NCBI GenBank assembly: GCA_019359375.1
Contig: JAHHHL010000057.1
Location: forward strand, 1-35,786
From: Lyngbya sp. HA4199-MV5
Lineage (GTDB): Bacteria; Cyanobacteriota; Cyanobacteriia; Leptolyngbyales; Leptolyngbyaceae
Direction: 5' to 3'
DNA length: 35,786 bases
Below the pieces are notes generated by a model. It had not been told where the DNA came from. It saw only the letters and a program-made list of their open reading frames with translations, and searched no databases. The position numbers were made by a program, and so were the translations under genes. This document shows, piece after piece, positions 1,034 through 33,691 of this stretch (the stretch's first letter is position 1; every line of letters starts with the position of its first letter).

Positions 1034-1436
1034 AACGTTTTTCCTTACAGTAAGCGAGTGGACAACGGAAGAAGGGAAATGATGCTCCTTGATCGCCCAT
1101 ATCCGTCGTCTTCACCTAGACTTTACCGAATTCTTTAAGCGAACAAACCTATCGTATGGATAGCTCTCGATCGTTAAACCAGGTTGCCGCTCAGCCATAG
1201 AGTAGTGATATGTTAATGAACGTTAAGGCTAGAACGAACGGTACGGACACATCTAAGCAATAGTCTTAACGCCTTTGGGGTGTGGCTCTGTTGCTCTCAG
1301 TCAGTGATTTACGGCTTTCCAGTCACGAAGCAGACGCAGCGATTTGCTCAAAAATCCGTGAAACCCCGGTGAGGTCGTGAAGAGCTAAAGAGGCACTATA
1401 GATCCAAGCAACCAGCCATGAACCTTGAGCCGCTTT
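1034..1436. other. Divergent intergenic region, no gene seen
   Basis: About 400 bases separate the divergent SDR-like and DUF1997 genes and must hold both promoters. No convincing -35/-10 pair, RNA gene or repeat unit could be assigned. A minus-strand reading frame that runs into it is antisense to the DUF1997 gene and has no recognisable domain. Confidence 0.5.
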
Positions 1437-2201
1437 ATGCAGTCCAATTCCACTGAGTCCAATCCTGTTGAGCGTCCTGAAGGTTTGCTGCACACCGCAT
1501 CGGTCATTCCAGATATGAACTACTTGATGACAGACGATAGCCAAAACCTGATCGAGCCGACCCAGTTTCACAGCCATTTTGTAGACTGCATGGAAATGGC
1601 TTCAGATATGCACACCGTAGCGGAGTATCTGGATGCTCACTCTGTTTGGTTTAAGAGCTGTGCCCAGCCAATGGTGGTCGAGCCGCTAGGGGATAACGGC
1701 TATGCGCTGGTGATCGGTCGCTTTGGTTCGCATGGCTATCAGATCGAGCCGAAGATTGGCTTACACCTGCTGCCTCAAGATCATGGCGTGTACCGCATCG
1801 AAACTATTTCCATCCCCGGCTATGTGACTCCTGGTTACGATGTCGATTTTCGAGCGGCGATGGAGCTAGTCGAAATGGGTGCTGAAGCGCCGATTGGCTT
1901 GAGCAATCGCAACCACGCCTCTACCAAAATGACTCGCGTAGAGTGGCAGCTAGACCTCACTGTATCGATTCAGTTTCCCCGGTTTATTCACGCACTGCCC
2001 AAAAATCTGGTGCAGAGTACGGGCGATCGTCTCCTCCGCCAAATTGTGCGCCAGGTATCGAACCGTCTCACCCGCAAAGTGCTGGAAGACTTTCACAAAA
2101 CGCACGGTCTGTCGATTCCCAAGCCTGCCAAGCGCTGGTTCTTCCAAAAGCAAGAGAGCCATGTGGACGAACATCTGGACGATGAGCCAACGGCTGAATA
2201 A
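1437..2201 (+). CDS. DUF1997 domain-containing protein
   Basis: A cyanobacterial/plastid DUF1997-type protein of 254 residues when read from the ATG at 1437. The frame also opens from a TTG at 1425, but no ribosome-binding site favours it. Family-like features are a central beta-rich region (VVEPLGDNGYALVIGRFG, then QIEPKIGLHLLP), a strand-rich WQLDLTVSIQFPRFI segment, and the closing helix RLLRQIVRQVSNRLTRKVLEDFH. The fold resembles lipid-binding SRPBCC/START-like proteins. Its biochemical role is not established. It is followed by a hairpin at 2260-2296 that probably ends transcription, so it appears monocistronic. Confidence 0.8.
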   Translation: MQSNSTESNPVERPEGLLHTASVIPDMNYLMTDDSQNLIEPTQFHSHFVDCMEMASDMHTVAEYLDAHSVWFKSCAQPMVVEPLGDNGYALVIGRFGSHGYQIEPKIGLHLLPQDHGVYRIETISIPGYVTPGYDVDFRAAMELVEMGAEAPIGLSNRNHASTKMTRVEWQLDLTVSIQFPRFIHALPKNLVQSTGDRLLRQIVRQVSNRLTRKVLEDFHKTHGLSIPKPAKRWFFQKQESHVDEHLDDEPTAE

Positions 2202-2259
2202 GCCCGCGCCGTGTGAAGTGGAATAGAGGCTGGTTGTGTTCATTGTTATCCCGGTGGCG

Positions 2260-2296
2260 ATCGACCTAGCCTCCGTGAGTCCGAAGGTAGGTCGAT
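2260..2296 (+). terminator. Hairpin downstream of the DUF1997 gene
   Basis: A perfect 9-bp inverted repeat, ATCGACCTA (2260-2268) and TAGGTCGAT (2288-2296), with further CCT/AGG pairing inside, followed by only a short T run. It lies about 60 bases after the stop codon. It is a plausible transcription terminator, or a small palindromic repeat. Confidence 0.55.
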
Positions 2297-2436
2297 TTAA
2301 GCTAACTTAGCGGCTGGAAATACAGTTGTGCCTCTTATATCTTGGTGAAGACATCTCAAAAGCCCGTTGGCTAGAAATTAGCATCAGGCTAGTATGGGTT
2401 GTTATGGTGGGTAGTGGCTTTGCAGGAGAGCTAATT

Positions 2437-2907
2437 ATGGCGATGAGTCTTGATTCTAGTTGGGACTTGTCAATTGACAATCGTAACGGTCAATTAGCTC
2501 TTGTTGTTGAAATCAAGCGCAAAACCAATGTATCGCCGGGGTGGGCAGCAAGGCTACGTCGAAATATCTATGCACACGGAACTTTTCCGAAAGCTCCGTA
2601 TTTTTTGATGGTTTTTCCAGATAAATTTTACCTATGGTCTGATGGTGAAGCTTACCAGGATCAGAGCGAACCTACTTACACGATTGATGCATCTCCAATT
2701 CTTCAACCTTACTTTGAGAGGGCAGGAGTAGGTGCTAACCAAATCAGTGGAGCTAGTCTAGAACTCATTGTTACATCTTGGCTTGGAGAGATTATTCATT
2801 CAGATCAATTGCCTGAAAACATTGATACTTCTCAACAATGGTTAATTGAGTCAGGACTTTATGCTGCCTTGATTGGAGGAAAACTTGAGCATGAGGCGGC
2901 TGCGTGA
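2437..2907 (+). CDS. PD-(D/E)XK nuclease-like protein paired with a PIN protein
   Basis: The ATG at 2437 has a GGAGAG ribosome-binding site a few bases upstream, giving 156 residues. The open frame reaches 2326, but that extension has no such site. The N-terminal strand pair shows Asp14, then Glu25-Ile-Lys27 in LALVVEIKRK, matching the spacing of a PD-(D/E)XK nuclease core. A hydrophobic strand, PYFLMVFPDKFYLW, follows. The stop codon overlaps the GTG start of the PIN-domain gene (GTGA), so the two are translationally coupled. The pair looks AT-richer than its neighbours, which hints at horizontal acquisition. I recall related proteins annotated only as hypothetical in cyanobacteria. Nuclease activity is inference from the motif, and it might instead be the cognate partner or inhibitor of the PIN protein. 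Confidence 0.7.
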   Translation: MAMSLDSSWDLSIDNRNGQLALVVEIKRKTNVSPGWAARLRRNIYAHGTFPKAPYFLMVFPDKFYLWSDGEAYQDQSEPTYTIDASPILQPYFERAGVGANQISGASLELIVTSWLGEIIHSDQLPENIDTSQQWLIESGLYAALIGGKLEHEAAA

Positions 2908-3527
2908 ATGTTTATGTTGAGACAAACTTTGTTCTAGAACTAACCTTTGAGCAAGAGCAGTGTTCAAGTTGTGAACAGATTTTGCAACTTTGTGAAGCAG
3001 GAAAAGTAAAGCTCATCGTTCCAGCTTATAGCCTTGCTGAACCGCATGAAAAACTGAGCCGCCAAGCACGAAGCCGTCGAGAATTGCAGCAGTCGTTAGA
3101 GACTGAATTGCGGCAGCTTTTACGTACAGCCCCTTATGCAAGTCGTATCAAGAGCATCCAAAATATTGCTAGCTTGATGATTCAGAGTAATGAAGAAGAA
3201 AGGCATCGTTTTGTTCAATGTCGCGATCGACTCCTTGAAGTTGGAGAAATTGTTGCGCTCAATGCCAGTATATTGAGTGAGGCAGCTTCCTATGAAACTA
3301 CTTACGACTTAACACCACAAGATGCCCTTGTCTATGCATCAGTTATGACTCATTTACGACAGGACTTACCGGAACAGGCTTGCTTCTTAAACCGAAACTC
3401 CAAAGACTTTGATAGTCCTGATATCATTGATGAACTTAGACCACTTAACTGTAGAATGATTCCACGATTTGATCGTGGACACAGCTTTATTCAGTCACAG
3501 TTGCCATTTGAGCAGCTAGAGATATAA
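2904..3527 (+). CDS. PIN-domain (VapC-like) ribonuclease
   Basis: A 207-residue protein starting at a GTG that overlaps the previous stop codon. The N-terminus MNVYVETNFVLEL places an acidic residue (Glu6) at the usual first PIN metal-ligand position. TPQDALVYASV supplies the central Asp, and FLNRNSKDFDSPDI supplies C-terminal acidic residues. The PIN fold is typical of Mg-dependent RNases such as VapC toxins, but this protein is longer than the 130-150 residues usual for VapC and carries a helical middle (SRQARSRRELQQSLETE). The coupled upstream gene is not a recognisable DNA-binding antitoxin. It could be a toxin-antitoxin-like or defence module, or an RNA-processing pair; the sequence does not decide. 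Confidence 0.75.
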   Translation: MNVYVETNFVLELTFEQEQCSSCEQILQLCEAGKVKLIVPAYSLAEPHEKLSRQARSRRELQQSLETELRQLLRTAPYASRIKSIQNIASLMIQSNEEERHRFVQCRDRLLEVGEIVALNASILSEAASYETTYDLTPQDALVYASVMTHLRQDLPEQACFLNRNSKDFDSPDIIDELRPLNCRMIPRFDRGHSFIQSQLPFEQLEI

Positions 3528-3639
3528 CCAGTCGCTGTACTGAAACACCACAAGCTAGCCGATTGAGTTACAAAGGTTCTTTGCGCCTGCTGAGCGGAAA
3601 TGTTAAACCTGTCTGTGCAAATAATTTCGTTGGCTGCAC

Positions 3640-4542
3640 TCAATTCTCTTTCACGGTGAGTCGTTCGACGCTGAGCCGCAGTACTGATAATCCTAGAATA
3701 ATCAGGAACATGACTAGCCCGATCGTGCAGGCGTAGCTCATTTCCAGGTCTTGAAACGCTTGTTCGTAGACGTAATAGACGATCGTCTTCGAGCTATTAC
3801 GCGGACCACCCTGGGTCATGATGTAGACTTCTTCAAACACCTTGGTCGCTGAGATGGCAGAAATCACGGCGACCAGCAAGATGTAAGGCTGCATCAAGGG
3901 AACCGTAATATCCCAATGCTTTTTGATGCCGTCGGAACCATCGATCGCCGCTGCTTCGTACAAATCTTCGGGAATCGCCTGCAAGCCTGCGAGGTAAATC
4001 ACCATGTAGTAACCCAGTCCTTTCCAAACCGTAACCACCATGACGCTAAAAATCGCCAAATTGGGGCTGGTGAGCCAGGGAATGCCGCCTGAGATGCCAA
4101 CGAGTTTTAGAAGCTGGTTGAGCAAGCCATTATCCGCATAGAGCCACTTCCAGGCAATGCCTGCAACCACCATCGAAATCACGACCGGGGTATAGTACGC
4201 TACGCGAAACCACCGAATGCCGCGCAGCTTTTGGTTAACCAGAATCGCCATGCCCAATGGCAGCGCCACTAGAATGGGCACAACGCCGACGAGGTACAGA
4301 ACCGTATTGCGAAAGGTCTCCCAAAAGACGCGATCGCCCCACAGTCGCCGAAAGTTCTTCAGCCCAATCCACACAGGCGGCTGCGTCAAATCAAAGTCGT
4401 AGCGCGTAAAGCTCAGGTAGAACGCCTGCAATGCCGGGTAGAACACCGTCAGGCTGAGGACAAGCAGAGCAGGCAGCAAAAAAAGGTAAGGTGTAAGCCG
4501 CTGTAGCAACAGGCTCCGATCCTTTAGCATCCATTTGGGCAT
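3640..4542 (-). CDS. ABC sugar-type permease (MalF/UgpA-like)
   Basis: A 300-residue inner-membrane permease with six predicted hydrophobic segments, the first being LTPYLFLLPALLVLSLTVFY. The permease EAA loop is clear near residues 190-215 (EDLYEAAAIDGSDGIKKHW then ITVPLMQP) and is where the ATPase docks. Length and motif fit the carbohydrate uptake type 1 family. No binding protein, second permease or ATPase of that family is adjacent: the neighbours are the PIN gene, a 70-bp MITE and an operon of a different ABC class. The permease either works with subunits encoded elsewhere or is a remnant of a dispersed system. The substrate is unknown. Confidence 0.88.
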   Translation of the reverse strand: MPKWMLKDRSLLLQRLTPYLFLLPALLVLSLTVFYPALQAFYLSFTRYDFDLTQPPVWIGLKNFRRLWGDRVFWETFRNTVLYLVGVVPILVALPLGMAILVNQKLRGIRWFRVAYYTPVVISMVVAGIAWKWLYADNGLLNQLLKLVGISGGIPWLTSPNLAIFSVMVVTVWKGLGYYMVIYLAGLQAIPEDLYEAAAIDGSDGIKKHWDITVPLMQPYILLVAVISAISATKVFEEVYIMTQGGPRNSSKTIVYYVYEQAFQDLEMSYACTIGLVMFLIILGLSVLRLSVERLTVKEN

Positions 4543-4757: not shown

Positions 4758-5450
4758 CTAAACCAATGCCTTCGCAGGCTTCCAGGCTTCCAGTCCTTTC
4801 AGAACATCCGTAGCGGTTGCTGTCCAGCCGACGATGCCACCCTGGGCACGTACCATTTCTAGGGTCGATTGTTTAAATTCTGGGAAGTAGCTTTCGGTGC
4901 AGTCTTCGACCATGACGCACTCGTAGCCACGATCGTTCGCCTCGCGCATGGTGGTTTGCACACACACTTCAGTCGTCACGCCTGTAATAAACAGGTGCGT
5001 AATGTTTTTTGCCTTCAGCAGCGATTCCAATTCGGTTGCATAAAAAGCCCCTTTTCCAGGCTTGTAAATGACCGTTTCATTGGGTAAAGGAGCCAATTCG
5101 GGAATGATGCCATTGCCCGGTTCACCTTTGATAAGAATGCGTCCCATTGGTCCTTCGCTGCCGATCGTCAACTCACCTTTGCCTCGCTTAATCTTGGAAG
5201 GAGGGCAATCAGAAAGGTCTGGTTGATGACACTCGATCGTATGAAAAATCGGCAATTCCAAGGCACGAAAACCGTCAATTAGTTGTTTCAAAGTGGGCAC
5301 GATCGCCCGCAACAAACCTACATCATTTCCTAAAATATCGCCAAAGCCACCCAACTCCATAAAGTCTCGCTGCATATCAATCACAATCAATGCAACATTG
5401 CTAGAGCTAGGAAGTTCATAATCGTAAGGCTGAGCAGAAATTGTGATCAT
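4758..5450 (-). CDS. Isochorismatase-fold cysteine hydrolase, biuret-hydrolase-like
   Basis: A 230-residue cytoplasmic amidohydrolase of the isochorismatase superfamily. The triad is visible: Asp25 (VIDMQRDF), Lys130 (YKPGKGAFYAT) and nucleophile Cys163 (ITGVTTEVCVQTTMREAND). The KPGKGAFYAT and TTEVCVQTTMREANDRG segments resemble biuret amidohydrolase (BiuH) and related triuret/ureide hydrolases more than classical isochorismatases. It is the last gene after a BMP-type nucleoside/purine transporter on the same strand, separated from it by inverted heptad repeats. A role in hydrolysing an imported urea-like or purine-derived nitrogen compound is likely but inferred. Nicotinamidase or ureidoacrylate hydrolase activity cannot be excluded. 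Confidence 0.85.
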   Translation of the reverse strand: MITISAQPYDYELPSSSNVALIVIDMQRDFMELGGFGDILGNDVGLLRAIVPTLKQLIDGFRALELPIFHTIECHQPDLSDCPPSKIKRGKGELTIGSEGPMGRILIKGEPGNGIIPELAPLPNETVIYKPGKGAFYATELESLLKAKNITHLFITGVTTEVCVQTTMREANDRGYECVMVEDCTESYFPEFKQSTLEMVRAQGGIVGWTATATDVLKGLEAWKPAKALV

Positions 5451-5583: not shown

Positions 5584-7146
5584 CTAATGCCCCGCCATAC
5601 TCTGACCGATCGCCGCAAAGTCTGCATCCTCGATCGTGCTTTCGTAGGCGAAGGTGCCACCGCTGATGACGAAGATGCGATCGGAGAGTTTGAGTAGCTC
5701 GTCTAGATCTTCGCTCACTAGCAACACGGCAACACCACGATTGCGCGCTTCGAGAATTTGTCCGTGAATGTAGTCCACCATTGCAAAGTCCAGACCAAAG
5801 CAGGGGTTGGCAGCAATCAGTAGCTTGATGTGGTCTTCGGACAGTTCCCGTGCAAGGACGGTGCGCTGGACGTTCCCACCAGAGAGGTTGCCCACGGGTG
5901 TATCAGGCGAGGGGGTTTTGATTTTGAAGGAGCTAATCAAGCCGACTGCCATTTCGCGGATGGCTTTGAAGATGAGCAGGATGCCTTTTGCCTGGGGTGG
6001 GCGATCGAACGTCCGCAGTGCCAGGTTCTCAGCCACGCTCATGTGGGCGACGCAGGCATTCCGTAGGGGTTCTTCGGGTAAGACAAACACGCGATTCTTA
6101 AACATTTCGGCGCGAGTCATCTTGTAGGGTTGACCGTCCACCAGTACCTCACCTGCCGTTGCTGGACGCTGACCTGCCAGCACTTCCACCAGTTCACGCT
6201 GACCGTTGCCAGAGATGCCTGCGATGCCGACGACTTCGCCACTGTGAACCGTCAGATCCACACCACCAACCGCTTCTAGCCCATTGTCTTTATTGGCGTA
6301 AATGCCTTTGATTTGCAGGATGGGCTTAGGTTCGCCATGAATGCTTTTCTCGACCTTCTGCGGCTCCCGTTTTTCACCCATCATCATTTCTGCCATCGCA
6401 GAAACGGTCATGTCTTTAACCGTGCCGCTGCCCGCAAACTGACCTTTACGAAGCACAGTAATTTCGTCGGTAAACGCCGTGATCTCACGAAACTTGTGGC
6501 TGATCATCAAGACGCTCAGCTTACCATCCGTGACCTGCTCTCGAATCAAGCCCAGCACCTCATCGGCTTCCGCAGGCGTGAGCACAGAGGTGGGTTCATC
6601 CAGAATCAAAATTTTGCTTTGCAGGTAAAGCTGCTTGAGGATTTCGAGCTTTTGCTTTTGTCCAGCCGCTAGTTGCCCAACCAGCAGATCAAGGGGCACT
6701 TTGAAGGGTGCGGTCTCCATAAAGGCGGAAAGTGCCTCAAATTCCTTCTTCCAGTTGATGAGGTTGGTGTTATCAAAGCGAGACAGCACCAGATTTTCGG
6801 CAACCGTCATGGCGGGCACAGAGGTGAAATGTTGGTAGACCATGCCAATGCCGTAGGTGTGAGCATCACGCGGGCTGGCGATCGCCCTCACCTGTCCGTC
6901 AATCAGCACCTCTCCTGATGTCGGCGTATAAAAGCCCATAATGCACTTCACCAGAGTGCTTTTACCCGCGCCGTTTTCCCCCAGTAGGGCATGAAAGGTG
7001 CCCGGTTTGAGCTTCATGGATACATTTTCCAGCGCCGTGAAGGAGCCAAACCGCTTGGTCATGTTAACCACTTCCAGTTCTGGTGGTCCCGCCAGCGCAT
7101 GAGCATTATTGGTGGTGTGGGTGAGTGGATTTGCAACTTCTGTCAT
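5584..7146 (-). CDS. ABC ATPase with two nucleotide-binding domains, BMP-type nucleoside/purine uptake
   Basis: A 520-residue fused ABC ATPase. Domain 1 has Walker A GENGAGKST (56-64), a variant signature QLAAGQKQKLEI, and Walker B ILILDEPTSVLTP. Domain 2 has the degenerate P-loop GISGNGQRE, signature NLSGGNVQR and the altered Walker B LLIAANPCFGLD. This asymmetry is normal for the YufO/NupA and ribose/galactose-type family, where site 2 is catalytically weak. A 236-base gap separates it from the permease gene upstream in transcription, unlike the tight packing of the other transporter genes. It powers the two permeases at 7383-9584. Confidence 0.93.
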   Translation of the reverse strand: MTEVANPLTHTTNNAHALAGPPELEVVNMTKRFGSFTALENVSMKLKPGTFHALLGENGAGKSTLVKCIMGFYTPTSGEVLIDGQVRAIASPRDAHTYGIGMVYQHFTSVPAMTVAENLVLSRFDNTNLINWKKEFEALSAFMETAPFKVPLDLLVGQLAAGQKQKLEILKQLYLQSKILILDEPTSVLTPAEADEVLGLIREQVTDGKLSVLMISHKFREITAFTDEITVLRKGQFAGSGTVKDMTVSAMAEMMMGEKREPQKVEKSIHGEPKPILQIKGIYANKDNGLEAVGGVDLTVHSGEVVGIAGISGNGQRELVEVLAGQRPATAGEVLVDGQPYKMTRAEMFKNRVFVLPEEPLRNACVAHMSVAENLALRTFDRPPQAKGILLIFKAIREMAVGLISSFKIKTPSPDTPVGNLSGGNVQRTVLARELSEDHIKLLIAANPCFGLDFAMVDYIHGQILEARNRGVAVLLVSEDLDELLKLSDRIFVISGGTFAYESTIEDADFAAIGQSMAGH

Positions 7147-11298: not shown

Positions 11299-14200
11299 AT
11301 GGATGCTGATGCAGCACTCAAACTTATTGAAACAGCGTTGAACGATAGGCGTTTGGGGCGATTGCAGGCGATCGTCCTTCGGCTCGCGTGGGATGACTGG
11401 TCGTATCAAGAGATTGCCAAACAGTCAGGCTACGAAGTTGGTTACATCAAGCAGACAGGTTCGCAACTCTGGCAGATCCTCTCAGAAACGCTAGGAGAGC
11501 GCGTCACAAAGAACAATCTGCACGTTGTGTTGAAGCGGTATGCCAGTCGGGAGAGGATAGGGAGTCGGGAGTCGGGAGTCGGGAGTCGGGAGGCAGAGGG
11601 CAGAAGGCAGGAGGCAGAAGGTAACGTTGTTGGCTCCACACTCGAAGCAAAAGCCAGCAGTCAAAAGCCAGAAGGAATCCCTTACCCCACTCCCCACTCC
11701 CCACTCCCCACTCCCCACCAAGACTGGGGCGAAGCCAGTGATGTGTCAGTCTTCTACGGTCGATCGGCTGAACTCACCACTCTTGAGCAATGGGTGCTGG
11801 ACGATCGCTGCCGACTGATCGGACTCTTCGGCATGGGTGGTATTGGCAAAACGGCGCTTTCTGCCCGGTTGGCAAGGCAGATTCAAGACCAGTTTCAATC
11901 GGTCATCTGGCGATCGCTCCGCAATGCCCCGCCGATTCACACGCTGCTGCATGACGTGATTCACTTTGTTGCCGATCAGCAGACGCAAACCCTCCTATCA
12001 GATAGAGACACACTGGACAAGCAAATCTTGCTGCTGCTGCACTATCTAAGGTCTCACCGCTGTCTGCTGATTTTGGATAATGCTGAAACAATCATGCAAC
12101 CCGGCGATCGGGATGGTGGCTATCTACCAGGCTATGAGGGCTATGGTCAGCTTTTGCGATGCATCGGCGAAACCCCACACCAGAGCTGTTTACTCATTAC
12201 CAGCCGTGAAAAACCCAAAGGGCTGGCTCCCAAAGAAGGCGATGGCTTGCCCGTGCGATCGCTCCAGTTGACGGGGTTAACGCCTGCGATCGGGCGAGAA
12301 ATTTTCAGCATCAAAGGCACCTTCTCCGGTTCGGCAGCAGAATGGCAACGGCTTGTTGATCACTACGCAGGCAATCCTCTTGCCCTGAAGATTGTTGCGA
12401 CGGCGATCGCTGATTTCTTTGACGGCAGCCTGACGCAGTTTTTGGACTTCTCACAGCAAGGTAGCTCGGTCTTTGGAGACATTCGGGACTTGCTGGCACG
12501 TCAAATCGGTCGCCTGTCCGACCTTGAACAACAGGTCATGTTTTGGCTGGCGATCAACCGTGAACCCCTTCGCTTTCCCGAACTGCAAGCCGACTGCTTA
12601 CCACCCGCCACCCCTGCCCAACTGCTCGAAACCCTTACTGCTCTGGAACGCCGTTCCCTCATCGAAAAGAACGGCAACCTTTTCACCCTGCAACCCGTAG
12701 TGATGGAGTATATGACCGAGCGGTTGATTGAGGGGGTTTGTGGGGAGATTGAGGGAGTGGGGAGGCAGGAGGCAGGAGGCAGGAGGCAGGAGGCAGGAGT
12801 GGGGGAAGCAGGGGAAGCAGGGGAGGCAAGGGAAGCAGGAAGCAGGAGGCAGGAGGTAGGAGGTAGGAGGCAGGAGGTAGGAGGCAGAACTCAAAACTCA
12901 AAACTCAGAACTCAAAACTCAAAACTCTTTCCCACTCCTCTCCTTCGATCGCACGCACTCATCAAAGCGCAGGCAAAGGACTATGTGCGGGAGGCGCAAA
13001 TTCGCTTACTGTTGCTGCCGATCGTTGAGCGGCTGTTGCACACGGGTAGTCGGGCTGATCTTGATCGCGTCCTGATGCAGCTTCTCAACGCACTGCGCGG
13101 GCAAGCACCCCACATGATCGGGTATATAGGCGGGAATGTGATCAATTTGCTCTGTCAGCTTCAGGCGAATCAAGCCGATGAAGGGCTGGAAGGGGGCGAT
13201 CGCAGGATGTACGCTTCAGGGTTGAGTAGTCGAACTATGGGTACGTTGCACGATCGTGACTTTTCTCACCTCACCTTCTGGCAAGCCTACTTTCAAAAAG
13301 TACACCTCCACGGAACCGACTTTTCTCACTCTGATCTCAGCAAAGCGGTCTTTACCGAAACGTTTAGCCAAATTCTGGCGGTTGCCTTTAGCTCGGATGG
13401 TAAATTGCTGGCAGCAAGCGATATCAGCTACGAAGTACATATCTGGCAGGTGTCTGATGGCAAAAAACTACTGACCTGTAAAGCCAAAGATGGCTGGGCA
13501 TGGTCGGTTGCGTTCAGTCCTGATAAACGCCTGCTTGCCAGTAGTGCCAATGGCACCATTCACCTCTGGGATATCCGCACAGGCGACTGTGTAAAAACAC
13601 TCAAAGGCTATACCAGCCGCGTCTTCTCGCTGGCGTTTGACCCCACAGGTACCTACCTCGCCAGCGGCAACGAAGACCCCCAGGTGAGAATCTGGCACGT
13701 TGCCACAGGCGCGCTCACCGCTGTGTTGACGGGTCATACCGATGAAGTCCATTCCGTCGCGTTTAGTCCCGATGGTCGACTACTGGCAAGTGGAAGTTAC
13801 GATCGCACCATTAAATTATGGGACATGTCAGGGTTGGAGGGGGCAGAAGGCAGAAGGCAGAAGGCAGAGGGGGCAGGGGCAGCAACTCAAAATCCAAGAC
13901 TCTCTAGCATAGCGGCGCACTTACGAAGTAGCTCTCAAAGAGCTAGTGCTACTCCTCACTCCTCACTCCTCACTCCTCACTCCTCACTCCTCACTCCTCA
14001 CTCCTCACTCCTCACCCTCACCGGACACGCTGATTGGGTCTGGTCGATCGCCTTCAGCCCCGATGGCAGCACGTTAGCCAGCAGCAGTAGTGATCGCACC
14101 ATCAAGCTGTGGGACATGCAAACCCAACAGTGCTACAAGACGTTAGCGGGTCATGCGGAGGCGGTGCGATCGATTGCCTTTGCTGTTACTCCAACGAATG

Positions 14201-15861
14201 GCTTGCACGGAGCTTGCTTAGTCAGTGGCAGTGACGACCATACAGTGCGGTTGTGGAACGACAATGGCGACTGCCTGCGGGTGCTACAAGGTCACACCAG
14301 TTGGATTTCTGCCGTTGCCTTTAGCCCTGACGGAAACTTACTCGCCAGCGGCAGTGAAGATCAGTCTGTACGCTTGTGGGATGCTCGCACCAACCAATGC
14401 TTACGGTTACTGCAAGGCTACAACAGCGGTGTCTGGTCGATCGCCTTCAACCCCAATGGTCGCACCCTGGTCAGCGGTGGGCAGGATCGGGTCGTTCGAG
14501 TTTGGAATCTATCGCAATGCAAACGTCAGAAGGCAGAAGCATACAGAGAAGAAAGCCAAGGCAAATCCCTCCCCCCCCATTCCCTACTCCCCATTCCCTA
14601 CTCCCTTCCTGGGCACACAAGCTGGGTCTGGTCAGTTGCCTTCAGCCCCGATGGGTACACGATCGCCAGTGGCAGCGAAGACAGCACCGTGCGCCTATGG
14701 AATCTGCCTGAGGTTGAAGGGCAGGAAGTAGAAGGCAGGAGGCAGGAGGCAGGAGGCAGGAGGCAGGAGGCAGAAGAGGACACGGGGACACGGGAACACG
14801 GGGACACGGAGAATTCTGATCACATTCAAAACTCTCATCCCACATCCCTCGCCCCTCATCCCACACCCCACACCCCACACCCCACACCCCATACCCCACA
14901 CCCCACACCCCATCCCCTCACCGGACACACCCACGCCGTCTGGTCAGTTGCCTTTAGCCCCGATGGTCAACTGCTCGCCAGTGGCAGCCTGGATGGTACC
15001 ATTCGCCTGTGGGATCGATCGGGCGATGAGCAGCACTGCCTGTATGGTCATGAAAGCGGCGTTTGTGCGGTCGCTTTTGCACCCCGATCGTCCGCATCAG
15101 GGCAGCACCTCCTTGCCAGCGGCAGTCAAGATCAAACGATTCGGCTGTGGTCGATCGCTCCTGAAACTGCACAGATCCATGACTCCAATCGTCCGAGACC
15201 CGTGACCGCGCAACCCATAAACACGCTGCATGGTCACAACAGTTGGATTCGTTGTATCGCCTTTAGCCCCGATGGCACGCTACTGGCAAGCGGCGGTTCC
15301 GATGGCATCATTATTGTGTGGGAAGTCAAAACGGGCGATCGGCTGCACACATTTCAAGCGCACTCCAGCCTGGTGCTAACCGTCACCTATAGCCCTAACG
15401 GGAATATTCTCGCTAGCAGCGGCGGCGATGGCATCATCAAACTGTGGGATCTTTCAGGTATCAACGGTCAGCGGTCAGCGGTCAGCGGTCAGCCATCAGC
15501 GCCGCTCCAGGCTCACCCCTCCGATCCAGACTCTTCCCCTGACTTCCCACTCCCCACTCCCCACTCCCCACTCCCGTTAATCCAAACCCTGCACGGTCAT
15601 CAAAATTGGGTTCGCTTTCTAGACTACAGTTCCGATGGCACATTGCTGGCAAGCTGTAGTCAAGATGGCACCATCAAGCTGTGGGATCAGACCGGGGTTT
15701 GCCTCGAAACGTTAAGGGTGCAGCGCCCCTACGAAGGTGCAACGATTACAGGCGTGACTGGACTCACCACCGCTCAAAAAAACACCCTGAAGTTACTGGG
15801 TGCGATCGAACACCTTACTGACCACCCCTTACCACCAGCCCCATCAGCCTCACCTGCTTAA
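11299..15861 (+). CDS. STAND/NB-ARC-like ATPase with 14 WD40 repeats
   Basis: A 1520-residue signalling protein. Residues 1-80 form a helix-turn-helix-like domain ([21 protein letters not shown]), common at the N-terminus of cyanobacterial STAND proteins. The NTPase follows: Walker A GMGGIGKT (178-185), Walker B LLILDNAE (Asp260), sensor LLITSRE (about 298-304) and GNPLALK (358-364). A winged-helix-like region and a short pentapeptide-like stretch ([12 protein letters not shown]) precede 14 WD40 units (about 690-1470), enough for two seven-bladed propellers. APAF1-like family logic predicts ligand sensing by WD40 and ATP-driven oligomerisation. No effector domain such as TIR, protease or nuclease is fused, so the output may be a partner or the HTH. 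Six in-frame low-complexity linkers interrupt it at domain junctions, yet the frame stays open throughout. Confidence 0.9.
11545..11718 (+). repeat. In-frame repeat insert A (HTH-NTPase linker)
   Basis: A purine-rich block of GGGAGTC heptads and GGCAGAAG/GGCAGGAG units (11545-11621) is followed, after a short non-repetitive spacer, by a pyrimidine block of CCCCACT heptads (11681-11718). It encodes an Arg/Gly/Glu/Ser-rich then Pro/His-rich linker between the HTH-like domain and the STAND NTPase. Confidence 0.9.
12749..12947 (+). repeat. In-frame repeat insert B (NTPase-C-terminal linker)
   Basis: The longest purine tract of the window: tandem AGGCAGG and AGCAGGGG-type units (12749-12888), then ACTCAAA heptads (12888-12926), then a short pyrimidine tail. 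It encodes about 65 residues of Gly/Glu/Ala/Arg-rich sequence followed by repeated TQNSKL, directly after the winged-helix region. Confidence 0.9.
13833..14013 (+). repeat. In-frame repeat insert C (after WD40 blade 4)
   Basis: A GGCAGAA-rich purine block (13833-13880) is followed by a spacer containing the hairpin AGCTCT-CAA-AGAGCT, then nine or so tandem CTCCTCA heptads (13951-14013). It is translated as TPHSSLL repeats in the loop after the LWD end of blade 4 and before the next LTGH start. Confidence 0.9.
14523..14613 (+). repeat. In-frame repeat insert D (after WD40 blade 8)
   Basis: A short AGGCAGAAG-type purine block is followed by C-rich pyrimidine units of the CCCTACTCCCCATT type. 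It interrupts the loop between blade 8 (RVWNL) and blade 9 (LPGHTSW). Confidence 0.85.
14713..14918 (+). repeat. In-frame repeat insert E (after WD40 blade 9)
   Basis: Tandem AGGCAGG heptads are followed by four imperfect copies of ACACGGGG, then tandem CACACCC/CCCATAC pyrimidine heptads. It encodes RRQEAGG repeats, a [10 protein letters not shown] stretch and TPHTPHP repeats between blades 9 and 10. Confidence 0.9.
15462..15577 (+). repeat. In-frame repeat insert F (after WD40 blade 13)
   Basis: Four tandem GGTCAGC heptads (encoding GQRSAVSGQ) are followed by a spacer and tandem CTCCCCA heptads (encoding [10 protein letters not shown]). It sits in the loop between blades 13 and 14. Confidence 0.88.
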
Positions 15862-29980: not shown

Positions 29981-32900
29981 TCAGCGATACAGCCAGACCC
30001 GCAGTAGCGACAGCAACTGTTCGGCATCAACAGGCTTCGTGATGTAGTCAGATGCCCCTGCTTCCAGACATTTTTCTCGATCGCCCTGCATTGCCTTTGC
30101 TGTGAGCGCGATAATGGGCAGCGATCGAAAAGCTTCCATTTGACGAATCGCCTGGGTGGTTTCGTAGCCATCCAATTCTGGCATCATGACATCCATCAAC
30201 ACCACATCGATATCGGGCTGACGTTGAAGGGCGGCAATACCATCCACCCCATTCTCCGCGTAGGACACTTGCATCTGGTAGCGCTCTAGAAGGCTCGTGA
30301 GGGCAAAAATATTGCGAACATCGTCATCCACAATCAGCACTTTTTTGTGAGCCAAAACAGGATCGCTCTGGTGCAGTTGCTCCAGCATTTGCCGTTTGCC
30401 TTCGGGCAAGTTTGCCTGTACGCGGTGCAAAAAGAGTGCGGTTTCGTCAAGCAGGCGCTCGGGCGATCGCACATCCTTCACAATGATGGTTTCTGCCAGT
30501 CGTCGAAGCTGCGTTTCTTGCGAGGGGGTAAGCTCTCTGCCGGTGTAAACAATGATGGGCAAACGGGTAAACTCTGGCTGCTGTTTGATCTGCTCAATCA
30601 AGTCAAACCCCGTCATATCGGGCAAGCCCAAATCCAGCACCACGCAGTCAAAAAGCTGCGATCGCAGGGCAGCCAACGCTTCAGCCCCCGTCCCTACAAT
30701 GCTGGTAGACACATCCCCTTCACCAATCAGTTCGCGGATGCTTTGCGCCTGGACTGGATCGTCTTCCACCACCAGCAGGTTTTTGACCTGACGCTCCACA
30801 AACCCCTTGATGTCTACCAATGCCTGCGTCAACGCCTCTGGTGAAATGGGCTTTTGCAGGTAAGCGATCGCCCCAAGTTGCAAACTGCGCTGCTGTTCAT
30901 CATCCGCCGAGACAATATGGACGGGAATGTGCCGCGTGTCTGGATCGCGCTTCAGTCGATCGAGCACCGTCCAGCCATCCATATCGGGTAGCCGCAGATC
31001 CAGCATGATAGCATCGGGTTTATACGTCTGCGCCAGTACCAATCCCGGTTGGCTGCGTAAAGACGCTAACACCTTGAAGCCCTGCTCTCGCGCCATCTCC
31101 ATCAAAATGCGGCTAAAGTGCTGATCGTCTTCAATAATCAGCAGCACGCGATCGCCCGGTTGGATGAGGGCGCGATCGTCGTCAACTTCGTTGAGGGGTG
31201 TGGGGTGTGGGGTGTGGGGTAGGGGGTAGGGGGTGAACGGTAAAGGGTAAGGGGAGCGTTGCGTTTCGCCTCCTGCCTTCTGCCTTCTGCCCTCTGCCCT
31301 CTGCCCTCCGGCTTCTGCCTCCTCTCCCCTCTCCCCTCTCCCCTCTCCTCTCTCCTCCATCGGCAACACCAGCGTAAACGTACTTCCCCGCCCTGGATCG
31401 CTGGAGAGTTCAATCCAGCCGCCCAGCAGTTGAGCCAGTTCGCGGCTGATCGATAAGCCCAGTCCTGTACCGCCATATCTGCGACTCGTGGTGCCATCTG
31501 CCTGCTTAAAGGCTTCAAAAACGACAGCCTGTTTTTCGGGGGCAATGCCGATGCCTGTATCAGTGACGGCAAAGGCAAGCATGGGTGTTGGTCGATCGTT
31601 CAATGCCCGATCGAGCGCTAACTGGGGACGATCGTCGGCGATCGGGGCAATGCGTACTGTCACACTGCCCTGTTCCGTAAACTTAAACGCGTTTGCCAGC
31701 AGGTTTTTCAGAATTTGCTGAAGACGTTTGGGGTCTGTCAGCATGGACGGTGGTAAGGCTGGGTCAAGCTCAACGCGAAAGGTTAACGCAGCACTCTGGG
31801 CAACTTGCTCAAACGTGCGCTCTAGAAATTGCTGCAAATCTGTGAAGCGTAGGGTTTCAAGGTCTATGGTGATGGTGCCCGATTCAATTTTGGCTAAATC
31901 TAGAATCTCGCTGATTAACGCTAGTAAGTCGCTGCCTGCGGCGTGAATGGTGCGGCTATACTCAACCTGTTTGTCGGTTAAATTGCCATCGCTGTTGTCG
32001 CTGAGCAGTTGCGCCAAAATGAGCAAACTGTTGAGTGGGGTACGCAGTTCGTGAGACATATTGGCAAGAAACTCAGACTTATAGCGCGAACTCTGAGCCA
32101 GTTGGGTCGCTTTTTCTTCGATCGCCTGCCTTGCTTGCTCGATCGCCTGATTTTTGCGATCGCCTTCTTGCTTTTGTTCGGCTAACAGTTGGGCTTTTTC
32201 TTCCAGTTCCTCGTTGAGTTGTTGCAGTTCTTCATTCGTTTGCTGCATTTCCTCTTGTTGCTCTTTAAGCTGCGCTTCCGATAGCCGTAGCGTTTCGGTT
32301 TGCTCTTCTAGCAGGCGGTTGCTTTCCTGAATTTCGTCTTGCTGTTGCTGCAATTCTTCTGTCAGGGTTTGCGATTCTTGCAGCAGTTCATTGGTACGGA
32401 GGTCGGCGGCGATCGTGTTCAGCACCACCCCAATGCCCTCGCTGACTTCCTCAAGCAAGGTTAACTGACTGGTTGTGAAGCGCTGGAGTGAGGCTAGCTC
32501 CATGACTGCAATCACCTGCTGCTCAAACAGAATGGGCAACACCACAATGTTGAGCGGTAGTGCTTCGCCCAACCCCGATCGAATACGGCTATAGTCGCCA
32601 GGAACATCCGTCAGCAGAATGCGCTGTTTTTCGAGGGCACATTGTCCCACCAGCCCTTCACCCAGATGAAACTGATTGGCTAGATGCTTGCGTTCGCGGT
32701 AGGCGTAGCTATCCAGCAGTTTGAGTAGCGGCGGGTTTGCAGCCACATCAAGGAGGTAGAAGACTGCCTGCTGTGCCCCAACAAGAGGCGCTAGCTTGGA
32801 GAGCAACTGACGTGCGACGGTTCCTTGATCACGCTGTCCCTGGAGCAGCCGACCAATTTCTGCCAGGTTCGCTTTGAGCCAGGTTTGCTCATCGTTCCGC

Positions 32901-33691
32901 TGCCTGATATCTCGCAGATTGACAATCATCTGGCTGAAAGTGCGCGTCAGGGTGCCAATTTCGTCCTGTCGATCGCTCCTCGGCACGCTCACCTCTAAAT
33001 CACCTTCCCCAATGCGATCGGCTACTTCTGAGACTTGCCGTAGTGGTCGTGAAATGTGGCGCGCTAAGGTCAGCCCAATCAAAATCAGCAGCACTGAATA
33101 CGCTGGAATGCCGTAGATGATACTGTCGGTTGTTTGTCTGGCGGCTGTCGTAGCCGCTTGCGATCGCTGCTCTAGGAGCGATCGTTCTTCAGTGGTCATT
33201 TCTGCCAGAATTTGTCGGATGTCGTTCATCAGTCTGTCGCCACGGTCAGTCAGCACAATTTTCTGGGCTGCCTCAAAGCCCTGTCGTTGCCGTAGCTCAA
33301 CGGTCTGGGTTAGCTCAGCAAGTCTAGCCGTGATGAGGGGATCGACCTGATCCAGGCGACGCAATTGAGCAGGATTGTCGCTAATTAGCTCGCGTAACCG
33401 CCCTCTGGTTCTGCCATCCAGTACGCTGAGAGCCGCGTTGTAAGGCTCCAGATATTTTTTGTTGCCCGTGAGAAGATAGCCACGCTGCCCGGTTTCTGCA
33501 TCCTTCAGGCGAGACATGAGTTCTTCTACTTGTCCAATAACCTTGTAGGTATGCGCTTCACGCTCAGACGTTTCAACCAATTGGTTGATACTGCGATAGG
33601 CTACTGCCGACAGCACTGCAAAGAAGAGCAACCCAAGTGCAAAGCTCGCTCCAATTTTGGTACCAATCTTCAAACGGTTTAGCATATGCAT
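29981..33691 (-). CDS. CHASE3-HAMP-GAF hybrid kinase with three receivers
   Basis: 1236 residues. A transmembrane helix (about 14-33), a CHASE3 periplasmic sensor ([21 protein letters not shown]) and a second helix (about 190-212) are followed by HAMP ([20 protein letters not shown]) and GAF (about 290-445). A long Gln/Glu coiled coil (about 460-525) precedes HisKA with His547 and a HATPase containing [17 protein letters not shown] and GTGLGLS. Three receivers follow at about 846-965, 968-1084 and 1114-1236, each with an acidic pocket and phospho-Asp ([30 protein letters not shown]). A repeat-derived linker separates the HATPase from receiver 1. It probably drives the downstream cheR-cheB-regulator operon. 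The start is ATG 33691, or ATG 33685 two codons later. The ligand is unknown. Confidence 0.92.
31192..31364 (-). repeat. In-frame purine-then-pyrimidine repeat in the CHASE3 kinase
   Basis: In the coding (minus) sense a GGAGAGG/GGCAGAGG purine block is followed by a CCCCACA/CCCTACC pyrimidine block. They encode [19 protein letters not shown] and then [19 protein letters not shown]. It joins HATPase and receiver 1 without breaking the frame, and the block order matches that of the inserts in the STAND gene. Confidence 0.9.

Follow-up and report, generated by a model that had tools for sequence, protein, structure and literature searches.

The two overlapping genes P1 and PIN of Lyngbya sp. HA4199-MV5 probably form a mobile toxin-antitoxin-type module with a restriction-endonuclease-fold antitoxin, carried here as an integron cassette. 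The toxin would be PIN, acting as a metal-dependent ribonuclease. The gene for P1 comes first, with translation presumably coupled to that of PIN, and the P1 protein would bind and neutralise PIN, its own nuclease chemistry being dispensable. The host copy is a cassette located outside the integron array, between two chromosomal genes and with a decayed attC site behind it.

Gene organization of the unit

The window is the whole stretch of 35,786 nucleotides that was analysed, not the unit itself. The features of the unit and its flanks are listed in Table 1. An earlier sequence-only reading had placed the unit with an overlap at GTGA, and its coordinates are exact to the base, with the P1 stop ending at 2907 and the PIN stop at 3527. 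This overlap suggests that translation of the two genes is coupled. The unit is also AT-richer than its surroundings, as had been noticed. Its G+C content is 42.3%, compared with 52.7% for the window outside 2200-3640, and sampling of the window at 50-base steps gave no other stretch of 1091 bases with so low a value. Purifying selection acts on both genes, with dN/dS values of 0.13-0.25 for P1 and 0.06-0.15 for PIN among six close copies. No sigma-70-type promoter-like site was found on the forward strand in 2190-3700.

Table 1. Coordinates of the P1-PIN unit and adjoining features in the window.
Feature	Position	Strand	Description
P1	2437..2907	+	156-aa PD-(D/E)XK-fold protein, proposed antitoxin; ATG at 2437
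PIN	2904..3527	+	207-aa PIN_12-family protein, proposed RNase toxin; GTG at 2904
GTGA	2904..2907	+	overlap of PIN start codon and P1 stop codon
attC-like integron recombination site, partly degenerate	3520..3606	+	just 3' of PIN; covariance model
Approximate cassette	2324..3595	+	DNA shared with the copy in L002 or in L003, flanks not shared
Left flanking gene, conserved hypothetical	1425..2201	+	adjoins permease gene in same-genus genomes without the cassette
Right flanking gene	3640..4542	-	presumably a sugar ABC transporter permease, named from the sequence

Elsewhere in the window, the genes at 11299-15861 and 29981-33691, which we take to be a WD40-repeat gene and a hybrid histidine kinase gene, contain in-frame low-complexity stretches, of a type with a 13-residue motif and of the PHSPLPTPH type. 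The stretches in both genes are apparently related repeated DNA.

Predicted folds and active sites

PIN belongs to the Pfam family PIN_12 (PF16289; 56.1 bits against a cut-off of 32, E 8.1e-15). Its structural model (pLDDT 92.7) has a VapC-like fold and aligns best with VapC toxins (Z up to 11.8, 127 residues, rmsd 2.5). Two long helices (42-72 and 76-113) are inserted after the second acid of the catalytic quartet, which consists of E6, E46, D140 and D168. Glu6 in place of the first Asp, first pointed out in the sequence-only reading, is a family trait, since all 99 distinct sequences with a letter at this position have E.

The P1 model (pLDDT 84.2) shows two strands (11-14 and 20-26) followed by a helix and two further strands. 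D10, E25 and K27 are located at the first two strands, and D10 and E25-x-K27 correspond to the layout of PD-(D/E)XK enzymes. The earlier reading had placed Glu25-Ile-Lys27 on a predicted strand, in agreement with the model, and had taken Asp14 as the conserved acid, for which Asp10 has to be substituted. Of 123 distinct relatives, 117 have a letter at position 10, and in 112 of these it is D, whereas position 14 varies (Y 41, D 22, L 14, others), so the motif is D10...E25-x-K27. The best-conserved residues of P1 are Y92, W115 and G140; W115 (115/115) and Y92 (118/121) are the most constant and lie outside the nuclease motif.

With E values up to 10 allowed, neither Pfam nor NCBIfam gave a family for P1. 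The sequence-only reading had seen no DNA-binding antitoxin in the unit, and no DNA-binding family, nor a domain of the VapB type, was found in P1 when PHROGs was searched as well at the same threshold. Foldseek matches of the P1 model were weak (E ≥ 0.023), with the restriction enzyme DrdV, a Hjc-type resolvase, BpuSI and HsdR at the top. VIA-align gave no chain with Z ≥ 5, and a family assignment from this search was rejected, as its rows, with Z of 4.3 or less, are a mixture of unrelated folds. A profile search of near P1 sequences against solved structures returned nothing significant (best E 0.22). HSDR_N_2 matches 4 of 43 near P1 sequences (best E 0.0015) and 9 of 17 distant ones (best E 8.1e-9). 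The distant P1 sequences also have a few weak matches to Hjc, Mrr_cat, NucS and Cas4, and their profile matches BpuSI at E 0.011. Alignment with hhalign (probability 97.9%, E 3.5e-13) shows the near P1 sequences to be homologous to the distant ones, with motif aligned on motif. A PD-(D/E)XK core, as the earlier reading proposed for the first protein, is seen both in the P1 model and in the profiles of the distant relatives, which settle this predicted fold better than the weak structural matches do.

Retention of the active sites was counted in the 82 complete pairs among 95 distinct pairs. PIN keeps E-E-D-(D/E) in 81 of them. The D-(E/D)-(K/R) motif of P1 is intact in 72 and lost in 10, a significant difference from PIN (Fisher p 0.009). 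The chemistry of PIN seems to be required and that of P1 not, judging from these alignments.

Genomic neighbourhood and relation to defence

Neighbouring genes from 30 loci were assigned to Pfam families, covering 112 of 113 near ORFs and 124 of 129 far ORFs. ABC_tran (6), AAA_21 (5), HTH_3 (3) and Uma2 (2) are among the top 25 of 130 near-neighbour families. None of these four is in the top 25 of 141 far-neighbour families, which are mostly TPR. A PADLOC scan of the near neighbours alone, with no far control, gave mad3 (6), mad8 (6) and AriA (3). A defence or toxin-antitoxin island around the pair was rejected for lack of clear enrichment in these scans, although AAA_21 and HTH_3 lean the other way. 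The loci G460, G311 and G255 presumably lie among other toxin-antitoxin-like genes, going by their sequences, and the presumed identity of a neighbour of the P1 remnant L088 suggested a possible link to XisH/XisI. Phage carriage of the pair was also rejected: tblastn of PIN against 50,697 phage records gave no match, and none of 29 pattern stretches in viral contigs is a relative.

These data bear on the idea of a defence effector, in which P1 recognises or nicks foreign DNA and activates PIN to cut RNA, leading to abortive infection. The frequent retention of the P1 motif is in line with such a role, as are the weak fold and sequence matches led by DrdV, BpuSI and HsdR, the HSDR_N_2 matches of more than half of the distant P1 sequences, and the phage-related functions that integron cassettes often have, according to excerpts of one paper (PMC8618304). 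We nevertheless regard it as unlikely. No PADLOC family matched PIN, and the best match of P1 there is an unrelated one at E 0.066, so neither protein was assigned to a known anti-phage system; defence genes are not clearly enriched nearby; the motif is missing in 10 of 82 pairs; and P1 is often kept after the loss of PIN.

Pairing and distribution of the two genes

A single PIN scan retrieved 69 related loci, in 64 of which P1 is directly upstream of PIN. The 4-base overlap of the window is shared by 42 of these 64. The five loci without a full P1 comprise three cut by contig ends (L037, L057 and L059), one with P1 remnants (L065) and one with a PIN fragment and no P1 (L063). Among distant cyanobacterial PIN_12-like loci, a P1-like ORF of 148-184 aa is located just upstream in all 21 examined, these being the loci with DNA at hand. 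Seventeen of them were aligned, leaving out L123, L161, L128 and L131; for L128 and L131 the P1-likeness of the upstream ORF was judged by eye. The pair had been taken as obligate from the sequence alone, and this survey shows it to be almost so. L128 and L131 represent a third type, in which a PD-(D/E)XK-like ORF of 155-167 aa is followed by a PIN_12-like protein with a longer frame, of about 226-235 aa.

Records of the pair come from six phyla, namely Cyanobacteriota, Chloroflexota, Acidobacteriota, Pseudomonadota, Planctomycetota and Bacteroidota. Eight genomes of other phyla were selected for having the pair, and in them P1 lies beside 8 of the 9 PIN_12 matches over the cut-off. The ninth (G628:C77, L241) is a long canonical PIN_12 protein with a 372-aa frame and no P1 nearby. 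From this one match, the pairing belongs to the short PIN_12 branch, and the canonical long PIN_12 was rejected as a partner of P1. The distribution of P1 is patchy (24 of 292 genomes, weak matches included), and plasmid records were found for both genes (7 for PIN, 8 for P1). In the PIN tree (42 rows), two Chloroflexota rows fall inside the cyanobacterial group, while one Planctomycetota row, one Methylococcaceae row and a third Chloroflexota row stand beside it. This mixing of phyla is as expected from horizontal transfer, though no proof of it. Twenty loci whose copies are broken, truncated or doubtful were left out of the locus extraction, and some near duplicates were removed from the two alignments (A1 and A2, 43 and 42 rows).

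A gene that we take to be ispF-like is found before or beside the pair in 8 of the 21 distant loci. These P1-PIN pairs form a distant subfamily (L116, L118-L121, L123, L164 and L165), which suggests a domesticated, vertically kept branch. Such vertical keeping, together with the purifying selection on both genes, could point to a physiological role of the pair in RNA processing or regulation, in which P1 guides the PIN nuclease to its RNA. The patchy presence of the pair, its mobility on plasmids and as a cassette, and the frequent loss of PIN with P1 kept all speak against this role, and we consider it improbable.

Lopsided decay of the pair

Separate searches for P1 and for PIN covered overlapping draws of 292, 243 and 192 cyanobacterial genomes, and 40 stretches with doubtful places were re-read. 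Within the close clade, both genes are open over nearly their full length at 31 places. P1 is open and PIN is deleted, truncated, frameshifted or interrupted at 21 places, and PIN is open and P1 broken at 4. Both are broken at 14 places, and one more (G157) has only the PIN tail altered. G149 was scored as both-broken, against the favoured reading, though its P1 keeps 145 of 150 residues. Other PIN fragments accompany a complete pair (G533) or are close to the end of a contig (G509, G237:C189). The split of 21:4 exceeds the expectation from gene length (binomial p 0.004). The excess is also found in a stricter split of 17:3 (17/20, p 0.008), which omits P1 copies with altered ends (G008:C88, G311, G562), a fused P1 (G133) and G524. 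Such a pattern of decay is what would be expected if P1 were an antitoxin and PIN a toxin.

Three of the four reverse cases have a possible excuse. PIN in G326 carries E46Q, a tandem copy of P1 is still open in G524, and a T run in G517 is shorter by one T, at an assembly coverage of about 5-fold. The fourth, G297 (Paraprochloron, L007), with a frameshifted P1 and an intact PIN active site, is a plain exception. Decay by mutation alone, with more frequent loss of the longer downstream gene and no toxin logic in what would be a passenger pair, could draw on the length (207 versus 156 codons) and distal position of PIN and on single frameshifts in draft assemblies among the PIN breaks (G502, G505, G559:C260), but it is very improbable given that the excess persists against gene length in both splits and that one PIN with a dead partner carries E46Q.

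In G389, a Chroococcidiopsis plasmid copy, PIN is split behind an open P1 by a transposase-like ORF, presumably of the IS200/IS605 type. Two Paraprochloron species (L007 and L010) have a common P1 frameshift, and the one of the two with the further-decayed P1 has E46Q at the catalytic glutamate of PIN. The P1 breaks in G297, G517, G529 and G513 fall at codons 44-64, near T runs (window 2601-2606 and 2612-2616), and reflect either a mutational hot spot or assembly errors. In L087/L204 (G133), P1 is the rear part of a fusion that has about 220 additional residues at its N-terminus, and all that is left of PIN is a remnant of residues 2-31 some 0.7 kb downstream.

The unit as an integron cassette

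The integron cassette nature of the unit was absent from the earlier reading. The DNA shared with the copy in L002 corresponds to window 2334-3595 and that shared with L003 to 2324-3536, and the flanks are not shared. The flanking genes were compared by BLAST in six same-genus genomes. In four of them (L258, L259, L256 and L257) the flanks are 22 to 122 bases apart, representing an empty site. L255 has a SpoU-methylase gene (Pfam 91.2 bits) at the same site, and no left flank was seen by BLAST in L254. This intergenic site has received different genes, as it holds the SpoU gene in L255 and P1-PIN in the window. The SpoU rRNA methylase gene (L255:609-1385, G640) has a related attC-like tail (E 0.0042, array-trained model).

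An integron integrase was identified in the host genome (475.6 bits, cut-off 265; ORF C8:61740-62702), and attC-like repeats form an array on its left side. This chromosomal integron of IntI and repeat array spans G000:C8:48165-62702 (L281, L282). Cassettes in the array include a VapB-VapC pair, a methyltransferase-like gene (below the Pfam cut-off) and an overlapping pair of RusA and AHJR-like nucleases. A covariance model was trained on six attC sites of this array. Its single match in the window up to E 10 is the site directly behind PIN (E 1.3e-6), which has a right box, GTTAAAC, at 3602-3608. As only this right box is intact, the site does not fit the strict attC motif RYYYAAC...GTTRRRY; a scan with this motif missed it, and it was found by BLAST and the covariance model.

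The array-trained model was also applied to 717 kb from the 69 relatives. Sites directly behind PIN, as in the window, were found in L002 (1.8e-12), L055 (4.8e-6), L003 (3.3e-5) and L021 (0.0017), in addition to one site about 4 kb off in L009 and four more in L055. A refined model, whose E-value for the window is not independent because the window site was used in training, added a weak site behind PIN in L005 (E 0.38). Among 76 further loci it found a site in L106 (G170) alone, again behind PIN (E 6.3e-14). An attC-like site thus lies right behind PIN in 5 of 69 relatives (one weak) and 1 of 76 further loci, and most relatives have the pair without a recognisable attC. Covariation in the attC hairpin, in an alignment fitted to the structure, amounts to 94 cells with both sides changed compared with 36.4 in shuffles. 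In Cyanobium L055, the pair is bracketed by attC sites at 5355-5450 and 6627-6722. The next cassette there contains a Gp49-like gene (61.7 bits, cut-off 23.9) and an HTH-like gene just under the Pfam cut-off.

In the host genome, P1-PIN makes up a single integron gene cassette on contig 39, followed by a decayed attC. It is not part of the attC array beside intI, which is on contig 8. Two-ORF toxin-antitoxin cassettes are a known kind, as described in excerpts of a previous study (PMC8618304), and integrons in cyanobacteria are known already from another paper seen in excerpt (PMC2426708).

Discussion

The sequence-only reading offered three options for the pair: an unusual toxin-antitoxin, an RNA-processing pair or a defence module. 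The first is favoured here on account of the lopsided decay, the invariant PIN site beside a degenerate P1 motif, and the cassette context, whereas an association with defence islands did not emerge as a clear enrichment in the neighbourhood scans. The unit has generic type II features, being made of two small, adjacent, overlapping genes that are mobile and of which PIN is lost more readily than P1. We infer that PIN is toxic and has an RNA target, that P1 binds and neutralises PIN, and that the module is autoregulated.

Several observations stand against a toxin-antitoxin. With 72 of 82 pairs retaining it, the P1 motif is kept more often than pure binding would require, and G297 combines a P1 frameshift with an intact PIN site. 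The distant pairs adjoining the ispF-like gene look like stable inheritance and not addiction. No DNA-binding domain was found in P1, and no sigma-70-type promoter-like site was seen on the forward strand of 2190-3700. Toxin-antitoxin or defence genes are not clearly enriched nearby, few relatives have an attC behind PIN, and the structural matches of P1 to solved nucleases are weak.

VapBC modules consist of a PIN toxin and an antitoxin of the AbrB, RHH or HTH type. P1-PIN resembles them in having a small partner first and a PIN-fold protein with VapC fold matches second, in its overlapping genes, and in being mobile and patchy. It differs in the partner, which is a protein of about 156 aa with a predicted PD-(D/E)XK fold and no DNA-binding domain found. 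Compared with VapC, the present PIN has more residues (207 aa), carries a long insert of helices and has Glu for the first Asp. The view that this is not a standard VapBC module stands, the overlapping pair combining a PD-(D/E)XK-fold protein, in which no VapB-type domain was found, with a PIN protein.

PIN-associated antitoxins described by Makarova et al. (2009; PMC2701414) include COG2442, COG2886, COG2880, COG1753 and MerR-like families. As for P1, those antitoxins were inferred from their pairing with PIN genes, and some are abundant in cyanobacteria and Chloroflexi. Unlike P1, the partners in the parts of that paper considered here are HTH, AbrB and RHH proteins, and none in its section 9 has a restriction-endonuclease fold. 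The same excerpts name Uma2, a PD-(D/E)XK family of cyanobacteria, as a likely solo toxin. P1 is comparable to Uma2 as a restriction-endonuclease-fold family in a toxin-antitoxin context, but would be a retained and probably neutralising partner. Like the toxin-antitoxin cassettes of chromosomal integrons in Vibrio and others (PMC8618304, in excerpt), the unit is a two-ORF cassette closed by attC; it differs in its protein families, its position outside the array and its decayed attC.

Related literature, available as excerpts, includes a paper on Synechocystis toxin-antitoxins (PMC4963859) and a review of antitoxins (PMC4803016). PF16289/DUF4935 was found in one paper, whose excerpts briefly describe the domain and list genes (PMC6722718). 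A full-text literature search, with most subscription journals outside its scope, listed no paper that appears to describe a PD-(D/E)XK partner for PIN; with this scope it does not prove novelty. P1-PIN looks like an undescribed poison-and-antidote pair.

It is conceivable, though we hold this more tentatively than the toxin-antitoxin reading itself, that the pair represents a superfamily in at least six phyla with an exapted restriction-endonuclease-fold antitoxin. A (pseudo)nuclease would cage an RNase, perhaps releasing it on sensing DNA damage or foreign DNA, and the superfamily would have spread among cyanobacteria partly as integron cassettes. The loss of PIN with P1 kept, and the E46Q change in PIN beside a dead P1, amount to a natural experiment that makes the assignment testable. 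If the toxin-antitoxin reading is right, the antitoxin repertoire would gain one more protein fold, an unannotated protein family and a branch of PIN_12 would gain a function, and cyanobacterial integrons would be shown to move toxin-antitoxin cassettes.
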